Shown here: positions 33,267 to 38,237 of the stretch, in pieces | Layout: every line of letters begins with the position of its first letter | How positions within the stretch are numbered: position 1 is the first letter of the stretch | Origin: Herpetosiphonaceae bacterium | GTDB lineage: Bacteria; Chloroflexota; Chloroflexia; Chloroflexales; Kallotenuaceae | Assembly: GCA_036374795.1 (NCBI GenBank) | Contig: DASUTC010000037.1 | Coordinates: forward strand, 1 to 64,000 | DNA length: 64,000 nt | Reading direction: 5' to 3' | Made by a program: the position numbers and the translations under genes | The notes under the pieces: generated by a model | What the model was told of the DNA's origin: nothing | The model's input: only the letters and a program-made list of their open reading frames with translations | The model's database searches: none

Positions 33267-36200
33267 CTACTGCTTGACCGGAGCGGCCTTGTCTTTCAGC
33301 GCCGACAGCAGCCCCTCGACCTGATAGCCTGATTGCTCCGCCGCTGTCTGGAGCCGCTCGATCCGGCTGTAGGTTGCGCCGACAGCCTCCGCGACCTTTT
33401 TGGTCGAGGCTCTGGGAGCGGCGCTGGCGCTGACCGTTGTTTTTGCCAGCATCGCCCACAGCAGGCGCTCGAAGGCTTCCCGGTTGAACCACAGCACCTC
33501 GCGGTAGCGGTTGACCTGCAAGAGCTGCTGGAAGGCGCTGTCCTTGAACAGTTGCTCCAGCGTCGAGCCGTTGCCCTGCGCCGCTGCGCCCTCGGCGCTC
33601 GGTTGCAGATCGTGGCTGATCAGCAGCTTGATCAGCGCGACCGACCGCCACGCAGCCGTTTCGTCCTCGCCCAGGTCGCGGAAGACACCCGCGATAATCC
33701 GGTTGAGCATCCACTCGTCGATCAGGCTGCGGCTTTGCTGCGCGCCATCGTTGGGGCTGCTGAACTTGCCCAGGCCATAGGTGAAGAGCCAGCCGAAGAG
33801 CGCGCTCCATGGGATCGGATCGCCATCCAGGTTGCGCTGAAGATACTCGTTGGCGGCCTGGTACTCCTGATCGTCGGGAGCCGAGAAGCGGCGTTCCAGC
33901 GCGGGCAGGTGCAGGATTGCCTCTAGCGTCCGGCGCACCTCCTGCGCGAGCGCCGTCGGATCGCCACGGCTGCCGGTCAGCTCGCCGATGCCCTGGAACA
34001 GCGCGATCGTCTTGGACTCGACCTCGGATAGCAGCGTAGACGCAGAGGGCGCTGCAGCCTCGTCCTCGGCGCTGGCTGCGCTGGCTTTCTGCGCGGTCTT
34101 CGCGGCAGCAGGCTGTGCGACCGCCTTGGCCTTAGCTCCCTCGTCCTGTTTGGCGGATCGCTGTGTCGTCGTCGCATCCGCCTCAGATTCCAGCGTCGTC
34201 ACCCGCGCGTCGATCAGGCGGCGGAACAGATCGACGTTGACCAGCTCCTTGAACGGCTGGTGGATCGGCTGCAAGAAGATCTCGCGCTGCGCCTCCTCGA
34301 TGCTGGGCACGCCCCGCCCGCCCAACTGTGCGGCCAGGTGCGCGTACTGGCCCCACTCGGTATCGAAGACCTCGCGGAAGTCCATGAACACGTGGTGCTG
34401 GTACGCGCCAAGCTCGATGTACAGGCCGCGCTCGTACAGCTCTTTGCCGCTCCGAAGATACTCCAGCCCGGAGATCTGATCGCGGAAGATGTAGTAGCAG
34501 CGCTCGTCGGCGTTGAGCGCCAAGCCATCGCCCAGCGTGCGCTGTACCAGCCTGCGATCGCCGCCCTGGTCGTTTTTGACCGAGTACGCGACCGAGGTTT
34601 TGATCCAGCCGCGCGTCGTGGCGTATCGGTTGTGGTACAGCACCAGCGTGCGATCGTCGCCGAAGCGATTCGAGTAGGCGAAGACATCTTCGTTGACGCC
34701 GCCTTCGGGCATGTAACAGTCGTAGAGCAGGAAGTGCTCGGCGGCGGCGAAGAGGTAGCGACGATGCAGCAGCGGGAAGATCTCACGCTCATGGCGCTGG
34801 ATCAGATAGCTGTCGGGCTGCTCGTCCCAGTAGGCGCGGCGATACTCCATGCCGTACTTCTCGGTAAAGCCCTCGACCTGGCCGTGGCCGAACATCGGCA
34901 ATCCCGGCATCGTCACCATCACCGTGCAGATGCCGAAGTACTTATCGTCCTTGCCGAACTGCTCGACCGCCGTGCGCTCGTCGGGGTTGTTCATGAAGTT
35001 GACAAAGCGCTTCAAGATCTCAGGATCGAACTCCAGCGTGTTCTTCATCACCTGGCGATACTTGGCGTTCTCCTCGTCGCGCAGCAGGTTCATAAAGGCG
35101 CTGTTATAGACCCGGTGCATGCCCAGCGTGCGCACGAAGTAGCCTTCCATCAGCCAGAACGCCTCGGCCAGCAGCAGCGTGTCGGGCGCTTCCACCGCCG
35201 CGCGATCGACGACCTCGCGCCAGAACTCGTGCGGCATCAGCGCGTCGAACTGCGCCTTGGTGATGCCGAACTCGGAGCGTGAGGCAATCGCGCCGCCCGA
35301 TCCCGGCTCAGGGAACCACAGCCGCTGGATATGGCGCTTGGCAAGCGTCATCGCCGCGTCGAAGCGAATCACCGGGAACTGCCGCGCAACATGCAGAATC
35401 GTCTGGATCACCGCCTCGCGCGCCTCAGGATGGAGGTAGTTGATCTGCGCGGTATCGTTCCAGGGCATGCTCGTGCCGTCGTTGCCGTGGTAGATATACT
35501 GCGCCTCGCCGGACCAGCGATCGACGCGCTTGAAGACCACGGCGGCATCGCTGCGATCGTAGTAGTGATCTTCCAGAAAGATACCGATCCGCTCGTCCCA
35601 GGAGAGATCGGGGCCGTTGAAGCTGTAGGACGGATACGGGCTGTAGTCGAGCTTGATGAACCATTCGGGATGCTCGATCACCCAGCGCCCATCGATGCCG
35701 GTGTGGTTGGGCACCATGTCGCTGGCGAGCCGAATGCCGCGCTGCCACGCGCGCGCTTTGAGATGTTCGACCGCCGCGTCACCGCCGAGATCCGCCGCGA
35801 TCTGGTAGTCCAACAGTGAGTAGGCCGAGGCGACGGCGTCCTGGTTGCCCATCAGCTGCTTGATCGTCTTCGAGGCGGTGCTGCGCTCCCACAGGCCGAT
35901 CAGCCAGAGGCCGGTGATGCCCCAGCGCGCCAGCGTATCCAGCTCCTGATCCGGGATCTGATCGAGCCGATGGATCGGACGCTGGTACTTCTTTGAGAGC
36001 TGGTCGAGCCAGACGAAGGCGTTTTTAGCGATCAGCACCAGGCGCGGCATCCAGTCGCGATCGGGCGTGAAGCGCTCTAGCTCGTGCTCCTGGCCGGTAA
36101 AGCTATAAACCTCGACGGGACCACCGCCGCCGGGGCCGCCCGCGCCGATGAAGACCATCTTCTCTTCTTCTTTGATCAGATCGAGGCTGCTGAGCAGGCG

Positions 36201-36938
36201 GTAGAGATAGCTGCCGAGTATTCCGCTCCAGCGGCCAAGCAGGAACTCAAGCTGGCCCGCAAGCGAGTTCGGCATAGCGAGCGCCGGGCTGCGCAGGATC
36301 GCCAGCAGACTCTCGTTGCGCGGGCCGAAGCCAGGCTGGCTATCGAAAAATTCGTGCAGCCCGTCGATCATGCCCTGGTAGGGGGTCTGCGCTTCGAGCG
36401 TCGCGTCGTCGAAGAGTTCAAGGAAGGGCTGGTACGCCGGGTTGGCGTTTGCCAGCCAGAGCATCAGCATCTCTTCGAGCACAATCTCGCGATGCGCAAC
36501 GCCATCGGTTGTGTCGCTCATGTACTCGTCGAGCGTCACGTCGCCGCGATAGACCGCAACCGGCGGAAACTCGTCGGCGAAGGCGCGCAGCGTACGGTCG
36601 ACCTCCGCGCTACCGAGCCGCTGGTCGAGCGCTTCCAGGGCTTGCTGGATCACCTGCGGATTTTTTTGCTGGCGATACTGGTCGATCACCATGTGCAGGA
36701 TCTCGTCGATCAGGCCCATCGCGTTGATCTGGCCCGCGCTGACGGCGCGCTCAGGAAAATTGATCACATCTCGCTGGTCGTTGATGCGCTGCGCGAAGAC
36801 ACGAGCGGCATGAAAATTCGCGATGATCACGCTGCCGCGCGTAGAAAAGAGCGTCTCATCGAACTGGTAGCGCTCTCTGGCCGCGCGCGAGACGTGAAAT
36901 TCCATCGTTCTCCCAACGTATCCAACCTGCTGTTCCAT
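33267..36938 (-). CDS. GH13-like alpha-amylase family protein
   Basis: The protein has 1223 residues from ATG 36938 (MEQQVGYVG), with GGTGAGG upstream; ATG 36905 is an alternative. A long N-terminal helical region (1-330) precedes a GH13 barrel. Region I is DMVPNHT (407-413), region II RFDAAM has the presumed nucleophile D527, and region III LLLAEAF has the acid E592. Region IV reads FMNNPDE with D653, rather than the usual xNHD. A Lys/Ala/Gln-rich linker near residues 950-1010 leads to a C-terminal helical domain. No signal peptide is seen, so it is probably a cytosolic alpha-glucan or trehalose/maltose-type enzyme. The exact activity is not assignable. Confidence 0.8.
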   Translation of the reverse strand: MEQQVGYVGRTMEFHVSRAARERYQFDETLFSTRGSVIIANFHAARVFAQRINDQRDVINFPERAVSAGQINAMGLIDEILHMVIDQYRQQKNPQVIQQALEALDQRLGSAEVDRTLRAFADEFPPVAVYRGDVTLDEYMSDTTDGVAHREIVLEEMLMLWLANANPAYQPFLELFDDATLEAQTPYQGMIDGLHEFFDSQPGFGPRNESLLAILRSPALAMPNSLAGQLEFLLGRWSGILGSYLYRLLSSLDLIKEEEKMVFIGAGGPGGGGPVEVYSFTGQEHELERFTPDRDWMPRLVLIAKNAFVWLDQLSKKYQRPIHRLDQIPDQELDTLARWGITGLWLIGLWERSTASKTIKQLMGNQDAVASAYSLLDYQIAADLGGDAAVEHLKARAWQRGIRLASDMVPNHTGIDGRWVIEHPEWFIKLDYSPYPSYSFNGPDLSWDERIGIFLEDHYYDRSDAAVVFKRVDRWSGEAQYIYHGNDGTSMPWNDTAQINYLHPEAREAVIQTILHVARQFPVIRFDAAMTLAKRHIQRLWFPEPGSGGAIASRSEFGITKAQFDALMPHEFWREVVDRAAVEAPDTLLLAEAFWLMEGYFVRTLGMHRVYNSAFMNLLRDEENAKYRQVMKNTLEFDPEILKRFVNFMNNPDERTAVEQFGKDDKYFGICTVMVTMPGLPMFGHGQVEGFTEKYGMEYRRAYWDEQPDSYLIQRHEREIFPLLHRRYLFAAAEHFLLYDCYMPEGGVNEDVFAYSNRFGDDRTLVLYHNRYATTRGWIKTSVAYSVKNDQGGDRRLVQRTLGDGLALNADERCYYIFRDQISGLEYLRSGKELYERGLYIELGAYQHHVFMDFREVFDTEWGQYAHLAAQLGGRGVPSIEEAQREIFLQPIHQPFKELVNVDLFRRLIDARVTTLESEADATTTQRSAKQDEGAKAKAVAQPAAAKTAQKASAASAEDEAAAPSASTLLSEVESKTIALFQGIGELTGSRGDPTALAQEVRRTLEAILHLPALERRFSAPDDQEYQAANEYLQRNLDGDPIPWSALFGWLFTYGLGKFSSPNDGAQQSRSLIDEWMLNRIIAGVFRDLGEDETAAWRSVALIKLLISHDLQPSAEGAAAQGNGSTLEQLFKDSAFQQLLQVNRYREVLWFNREAFERLLWAMLAKTTVSASAAPRASTKKVAEAVGATYSRIERLQTAAEQSGYQVEGLLSALKDKAAPVKQ

Positions 36939-37208
36939 GCTAGCCTCACCTATGCATTGACCACGGCTCGTCTTGAAGATGGACAAGCCTTGCTCCGGTC
37001 GCTGTGTGTCACTCGGCACCTGGCATGGTCTATCCTGGCAAAAAGCGGGAGCGACACCTCGATCGTGTCTGGCGATGACTGTGCCCTCCTGCTATCTACC
37101 AATCGACGCAGCGGCGGTGCTGCGTCGTCGGGTGCGTCTCCGGTATACGGCGGCAAAGGTCGTGCCGCGAAGTGCCTTCAGCGCGGTGTGTTTGCAAGAT
37201 CCGGATCG

Positions 37209-38237
37209 TCACGAGTTGAATGTTGCCAGAATCTCGGCGCACACTGCCCGCAGCCGCTGATCGTCGCCTTCGCGGCAATCAGCAGACGGCAGGAGCTTCA
37301 TGTAGTCCGGCAGTTGAGCGCTATATAAGCAGATCGGGACCAGGCGCGGCTCGCCGACGGTGCGGTGCCGGTAAAAGGCCACGTTGAATTCCTCCTGGCA
37401 GGCTTTCGATCTTAAATATGCCGGAGAGTAGAGCGCGATCATCGTGTGGCTGCGGTCGATCGTGTCGTAGATCTGCTGCTGCCAGGCAGTGGCGGGGTTG
37501 AGCGCCTGCCGATCGAGGAAGATGTTCATGTCGGGCCGCTCCTGGCGTAGCTCGGCGGCGATCAGGTAGGCTTTATCGCTACTGTCTTGCTTGGAGTAGC
37601 TGATGAACACATTGTCCTGCTGGATGGAGCGGGGCGGGAGCGGCTCTGTCTGGTACTGGGCTTTCAACCGGGCGAATGCCTGCTTCAAAGCGGCTGCTTT
37701 GGGCGCCGATTGCTCGAAGAGCTTGAGCCGTCGCACCGGCAGCCCAAGGCGCATCCACTGCGTTGCCGCGTCGAGCAGCGCCGTCACCACCTGATTAACC
37801 GGCTCATCCCGATTGCTGGTCGTCATCAGCGGCATAGCAACCGAAACCGGATCGCCGATTGCGAGCACCGGCGCCAGGCTGCGAAAAATATCGCCGACGA
37901 CCTCGGTAATGTTGCCGAAGATCGGCGGCTCGAAGCACAAGATGCGCTTGAACGCAATACCCTCTGGCGGCGCGATCAGCTCATGCGATAGCCAGGCCGA
38001 GCAGATCGAGCACAGATCGACGGCCTTGTTTTTTGCAAGTTCCTCGACGGAGACACCTCGGCGGTAGAGCGAGCCGATCAACGTGCCGGATATGGGTAGA
38101 TAGCTGTTGGGAAAGGCGGAAACGACCAATATATCAACTGTTTCGTGTGTCGGCAGATTCGTCAGATCGCCACGATACAGCTCGATCGTTCGCGCCTCGG
38201 TACCATAAACGACGGTCAGCACGTCCAGTAATTCCAT
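37209..38237 (-). CDS. TIR-domain protein with conserved N-terminal domain
   Basis: Residues 208-342 form a TIR domain: the first strand is DNVFISYSKQD, the BB-loop region is FLDRQALNPATAW, and the helix SKACQEEF has E283 at the position of the catalytic glutamate of NAD-cleaving TIRs (CxxE). Residues 1-200 form a separate domain (IELYRGDLTNLP, VDILVVSAFPNSYLP, SVAMPLMTT) that recalls macro-domain topology (D-x-T and VVxA-like motifs); this is a suggestion only. It is a single cytosolic protein with no partner gene in the same orientation within 200 bp. A role in NAD-based immunity or signalling is inferred. Confidence 0.8.
   Translation of the reverse strand: MELLDVLTVVYGTEARTIELYRGDLTNLPTHETVDILVVSAFPNSYLPISGTLIGSLYRRGVSVEELAKNKAVDLCSICSAWLSHELIAPPEGIAFKRILCFEPPIFGNITEVVGDIFRSLAPVLAIGDPVSVAMPLMTTSNRDEPVNQVVTALLDAATQWMRLGLPVRRLKLFEQSAPKAAALKQAFARLKAQYQTEPLPPRSIQQDNVFISYSKQDSSDKAYLIAAELRQERPDMNIFLDRQALNPATAWQQQIYDTIDRSHTMIALYSPAYLRSKACQEEFNVAFYRHRTVGEPRLVPICLYSAQLPDYMKLLPSADCREGDDQRLRAVCAEILATFNS

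Follow-up and report, generated by a model that had tools for sequence, protein, structure and literature searches.

The window, by which we mean the whole stretch of 64,000 nucleotides that was analysed, encodes a protein in which a TIR domain follows some 200 residues of another kind, and the question raised by this locus is what these residues are and how they might serve the TIR domain. A sequence-only reading had guessed, with stated uncertainty, that they form a separate macro-like domain, and had pictured a self-contained protein whose macro domain binds the product of its own TIR domain. The features concerned are the following.

37209..38237, minus strand: macro-TIR gene (P0001, 342 amino acids); open reading frame call, with the orthologue L013/L038
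37623..38237, minus strand: residues 1-205, strongly supported as a divergent macro domain (core 1-198) plus linker; profile, hhalign, AF2 and Foldseek
38163..38171, minus strand: G23-D24-L25, counterpart of the macro 'GDI' with the putative adenine-contact Asp; hhalign register
38067..38120, minus strand: residues 40-57 (SAFPNSYLPISGTLIGSL), counterpart of the 'NAAN..GGGGVDGAI' loop 1; hhalign register
37797..37832, minus strand: residues 136-147 (PLMTTSNRDEPV), counterpart of the phosphate loop 'PSLSTGAYGYPV'; hhalign register
37248..37610, minus strand: TIR domain, residues 210-330; Pfam TIR_2, E 2.2e-20
37389..37391, minus strand: E283, predicted NADase glutamate (CxxE); invariant in 6/6 macro-TIR proteins
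33267..37019, minus strand: downstream alpha-amylase-like (GH13-type) neighbour, 1250 amino acids; sequence inspection and synteny

The reading frame for these 342 amino acids, on the minus strand at 37209-38237, starts with ATG; a short distance of a few bases 5′ of that codon there is a purine-rich AGGGGG. It is more than a chance open reading frame because an orthologue in a sister species of the same genus (L013/L038) is 54% identical overall, because dN/dS between the two is about 0.32 (dN 0.34 and dS 1.09 over the whole gene), and because the same large gene lies downstream in both species with a similar gap. The macro half taken alone has a dN/dS of about 0.25, and the TIR half, which evolves faster, one of about 0.38; GC3 is 0.75 as against a GC2 of 0.42. 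These comparisons indicate that the gene is real and under purifying selection. The shared neighbour, a GH13-type gene on the same strand after a gap of 189 bp, encodes a protein (33267-37019) with long N- and C-terminal extensions; we do not claim a functional tie between it and the macro-TIR gene, the synteny being within one genus only. The macro-TIR gene is flanked by a ribosomal-protein operon and housekeeping genes, and no signal-making partner gene was identified near it.

Judged by its Pfam matches, the C-terminal half is unambiguously a TIR domain: PF13676 (TIR_2) matches residues 210-330 with an E value of 2.2e-20 and 73.8 bits against a cut-off of 28, and PF01582 matches with an E value of 4.6e-6. 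Its CxxE motif is C280-Q-E-E283, and all six macro-TIR proteins keep both E282 and E283. The catalytic Glu conserved in helix alpha-C of TIR NADases is thus present as E283, as the sequence-only reading had said, and the domain is likely an NADase of the NAD+-destroying kind. Two other TIR proteins (L002 and L005) were seen in the same genome, on contig C150; their frames exceed 1000 residues, include an NTPase-like region and lie a few kilobases apart.

The identity of residues 1-200 was less apparent from family models. They have no match to PF01661 or any other Pfam family, and PF01661 was not found in the window protein or any of seven members of the N-domain family even at an E value of 10; weak matches to Sid-5, SulA and TFIIB were dismissed as chance, each occurring in single members only and under the cut-off. 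A profile built from the window N-domain and three relatives, when run against 400 genomes from the phylum, gave 22 weak matches outside its own family, of which 21 proved to be macro proteins when their translations were read; these distant matches share the pattern GDIT...DAIVNAAN..GGGGVDGAIHRAGG...IAFPSLSTGAYGYP. A second profile, made from seven members of the N-domain family, matched 29 sequences in the PDB, led by PARP14 (3e-4), YmdB (6e-4) and AF1521 (2e-3), and each of the matches listed was, as read, a macro domain, a macro-containing protein or a macro-based design. Alignment of the same profile with ten canonical macro domains by hhalign gave a probability of 96.6% over 174 columns, nearly the whole domain. 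AlphaFold2, which was given the window and locus sequences only, returned a pLDDT of 82 for the full protein and of 84, with a pTM of 0.82, for the N-domain alone, and Foldseek placed both models among macro domains (macroH2A1, YmdB, OiMacroD, PARP14 and PARP9), with an E value of 1e-9 and a TM score by target of up to 0.74 for the N-domain alone. The model also contains a low-confidence linker, residues 201-205, that separates residues 1-200 from the TIR domain. Profile, profile-profile and fold evidence together strongly support the assignment of residues 1-200 to a divergent macro domain. What had been an uncertain guess is borne out by three agreeing lines of evidence; the region is a separate domain with a macro fold, not an unrelated one, and the motifs that suggested the guess, GDLTNLP at 23-29 and VDILVVSAFPNSYLP at 34-48, lie within it.

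The ADP-ribose pocket of canonical macro domains is only partly kept in this family: D24 is retained and the loops are partly degenerate. G23-D24-L25, D35, S40-A41, P43 and Y46 are invariant among the six macro-TIR proteins, and D24 is kept in all eight sequences that cover its position. In EcThsA the Asp that contacts adenine is D83 (PMC11204291), to which D24 would be equivalent from its place in the fold. S40 and A41 (8/8) and Y46, W82, S84, R98, I99 and E103 (9/9) are near-invariant. In the hhalign register the GGGG run of canonical macro domains aligns to I49-S50-G51-T52, and the whole GGGGVDGA loop lies opposite I-S-G-T-L-I-G-S (residues 49-56); the catalytic Asp of MacroD falls at I54, which is Ile or Leu in 9/9 sequences. 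The GGGGVDGA loop with its catalytic Asp, the feature of MacroD-type hydrolases, was therefore found in none of the nine sequences. At loop 2 the TG is retained in four of nine members, some of which hold TGN or TGA forms at the counterpart of the phosphate loop, and the window copy reads TTSNRDEP, without TG. Because the MacroD catalytic Asp and the GGGG loop are lost and the adenine-contact D24 is kept, these residues suggest a macro domain that binds as a reader rather than hydrolyses, possibly with altered ligand specificity. By the same residues, the window domain may not bind ADP-ribose, since canonical loop 1 is gone and the TG of loop 2 is lost in this copy.

The partners of the N-domain bear directly on its role. 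Macro-TIR proteins occur, besides the window and its sister species, in Nostoc sp. CHAB 5824 (L039), an alphaproteobacterial MAG (L040) and a Chloroflexi MAG (L042), and an Oscillochloris MAG encodes a NUDIX-macro-TIR protein (L011 = L041; NUDIX E 4.8e-9, TIR_2 E 7.8e-18). Three further proteins lack a TIR domain and carry DUF4145 instead: L049 exceeds the Pfam cut-off (4e-7), and L050 (1.6e-4) and L007 = L043 (3.5e-4) fall just under it and share with L049 the motif R..GN...H. DUF4145 is a member of the HEPN superfamily that occurs in conflict systems (PMC3710099). Since the same N-domain is fused to TIR and to HEPN-type DUF4145, the architectures suggest that the C-terminal part is an exchangeable effector. 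One of these genes (L007:961-1950, L043:977-1966) lacks the first ~44 residues, and stop codons precede the only start that is open to it; it is possibly decayed or truncated.

The distribution of the N-domain family is rare, patchy and sporadic. Within the order, 4 of 82 genomes contain it, as do 3 of 339 genomes in the phylum of Nostoc; the seed alone was found among 235 genomes of the order of Nostoc and among 398 genomes of the phylum of the alphaproteobacterial MAG. Residues 1-205 as a single-sequence query gave nothing useful against GTDB contigs, plasmids and phages, and the sole phage match (E 0.2) was put down to chance. Three scans of viral contigs returned no relatives, plasmids held no relative of the Nostoc N-domain or of L049/L050, and a plasmid search with L011 gave TIR matches only. 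Matches at L008, L009 and L026 were rejected, as the matched frames did not resemble a macro domain on reading. Two other macro proteins were noted in the phylum. One (L035:613-2241, plus strand) carries DUF4062 (E 6e-8), which has been reported as a TIR-like NADase (PMC13174449), after a canonical Macro domain (E 7e-12); the other (L022:523-1767, plus strand) joins an N-terminal nucleoside-2-deoxyribosyltransferase-like region to a Macro domain that weakly resembles ThsA_Macro. Macro domains have thus been joined repeatedly to NAD-acting or related domains.

The locus had been described as standing alone, outside any known defence operon. This holds for the window gene with its housekeeping neighbours, but not for its relative in L041, where gaps of 9-10 bp separate the NUDIX-macro-TIR gene from the two helicase genes that flank it, DruE-like on the upstream side and DpdE/DrmD-like on the downstream side; the downstream helicase matches DpdE in PADLOC with an E value of 1.9e-195, and a DrmMI-like methyltransferase lies further downstream. 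The operon (L041:2265-16585, CAIXLU010000623.1) is an unusual mixture of Druantia, Dpd and DISARM-like parts, in which the DruE-like helicase is in two frames or split and a small GxxExxY-type protein precedes the DrmMI-like methylase. L043 has a candidate-defence gene nearby, which is a strong match to PDC-M28C (E 3e-211). In Nostoc a NUDIX hydrolase gene (L039:10261-10692, minus strand) lies on the opposite strand ~1.2 kb from the macro-TIR gene, which recalls the L011 fusion and may be coincidence. The family evidence makes a defence role of macro-TIR likelier, because one relative lies in a defence operon and the C-terminus is swapped with HEPN.

One hypothesis that would accommodate these observations, and to which we give about an even chance, is that the protein is a single-chain sensor-effector in which the macro domain gates a TIR NADase, leading to NAD+ loss and abortive phage defence. 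The divergent macro domain would act as a non-hydrolytic module sensing an adenine nucleotide, an ADP-ribose-type ligand or an ADP-ribosylated target that appears during infection or stress; binding would shift the oligomeric state and bring TIR domains together, the E283 active sites of the clustered TIRs would cleave NAD+, and NAD+ loss and/or an ADP-ribose signal would result in growth arrest or abortive infection. The ligand, the oligomerisation, the NADase activity and the anti-phage outcome are all inferred here. Gating by the macro domain is favoured because TIR and HEPN are exchanged behind it, because hydrolase residues are lost, and because there are precedents in TIR effectors controlled by an attached domain or by a partner domain (Cat1, SAVED-TIR and SpbK), among them SpbK, whose TIR NADase is activated through assembly driven by the attached N-terminal domain. 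Against it stand the missing canonical loop 1, the lost TG of loop 2, the housekeeping surroundings and the failure to identify a signal-making gene close by. A broader and more tentative proposal is that divergent "reader" macro domains, as a family not described before, provide the shared sensor for modular immunity encoded by single genes. The killing part would be exchangeable among a TIR NADase, a HEPN RNase and NUDIX-macro-TIR in a helicase/methylase operon, and an ADP-ribose-type infection signal would be sensed outside Thoeris.

Alternatively, as the sequence-only reading had pictured, the macro domain might bind what its own TIR domain makes, which could be ADP-ribose or a base-exchange product such as His-ADPR. 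In type II Thoeris a TIR protein makes the ligand that a macro domain reads (PMC11204291), and His-ADPR is stated to be its signal (PMC12847820); the adenine-contact Asp is kept here, and the phylum contains other fusions of macro domains to NAD-consuming or related Rossmannoid domains (L035, L022). The survey of N-domain fusions nevertheless weakens this model, because the same macro family is present with HEPN-type DUF4145 in proteins that have no TIR domain, so that a TIR in the same chain is not required as the source of its ligand. Given also that the family does not conserve loop 1 of the ADP-ribose pocket and that the protein has no membrane helix or output other than the TIR domain itself, we think that product sensing, which would lead to feed-forward assembly or product inhibition within one polypeptide, is unlikely.

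One could also envision a macro domain that works without a nucleotide ligand, as a protein-interaction scaffold for a phage or host protein, in the manner of the N-terminal domain of SpbK, which recognises a phage portal protein. The diverged pocket loops and the new family-specific invariants Y46, W82, S84, R98 and E103 would fit such a role, but the domain shares its fold with nucleotide-reading modules, the adenine-contact D24 is present in every covered member, and the NUDIX domain fused in L011 points to nucleotide chemistry; we consider the scaffold quite improbable. Least probable, and in our view a poor candidate, is a macro domain with enzymatic activity, taking off ADP-ribose or breaking down what the TIR makes and serving as a built-in brake with DarTG-like logic, for although many macro domains are hydrolases and NUDIX, fused in L011, is a typical ADP-ribose pyrophosphatase fold, the MacroD catalytic Asp is replaced by Ile or Leu and the Gly-rich loop is lost in all members.

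The sensor-effector reading can be set beside several known systems. Type II Thoeris, which consists of a TM-macro ThsA and a TIR ThsB, likewise pairs TIR with macro; there the macro domain reads an ADP-ribose-type signal and sits on a membrane effector, and at least two genes are involved, whereas the window protein is one soluble polypeptide that starts with beta-strands and has no TM helix. PF20016 (ThsA_Macro) did not match the window protein or seven members; elsewhere in six genomes it also gave no match, a search in which the control likewise matched nowhere. Membership of type II Thoeris was rejected on these grounds: a single gene, no TM helix, no PF20016 match and housekeeping neighbours. 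The protein resembles SAVED-TIR, STING-TIR, Cat1 and SpbK in that an accessory sensing domain would gate a TIR NADase within one chain, but the macro domain that takes the sensor position here has no relation to SAVED, STING or the four-helix bundle of SpbK. With MacroD/YmdB, PARP14 and macroH2A it shares the fold, the order of secondary structure, the putative adenine-contact Asp and an IAxPLxxTG-type motif; it differs from them in having neither the GGGG loop nor the catalytic Asp and in its extra invariants. L035 and L022 similarly combine a macro domain with a TIR-like or related Rossmannoid domain, but they carry canonical PF01661 macro domains and other partners and are apparently independent fusions.

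PADLOC gave no full-length match for the window protein, only matches to the TIR part, the best being to SAVED-TIR (5e-8). The open-access literature searched yielded no name for a macro-TIR fusion; most subscription journals fall outside that search, so that a prior description is possible, and regulation of TIR anti-phage systems by macro domains has already been predicted in general terms (PMC9503650). Each of the two domains is known from other systems of phage defence, but the divergent macro family and the macro-TIR fusion are absent from the family databases and open-access papers searched. Known TIR/macro ADP-ribose signalling, as in type II Thoeris, runs across separate proteins, and here there is a conserved single-chain fusion. 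The compact single-chain macro-TIR and macro-HEPN proteins would allow the sensor ligand and effector activation to be probed directly, and they may extend macro sensing beyond Thoeris to a family missed by Pfam, NCBIfam and PADLOC models.
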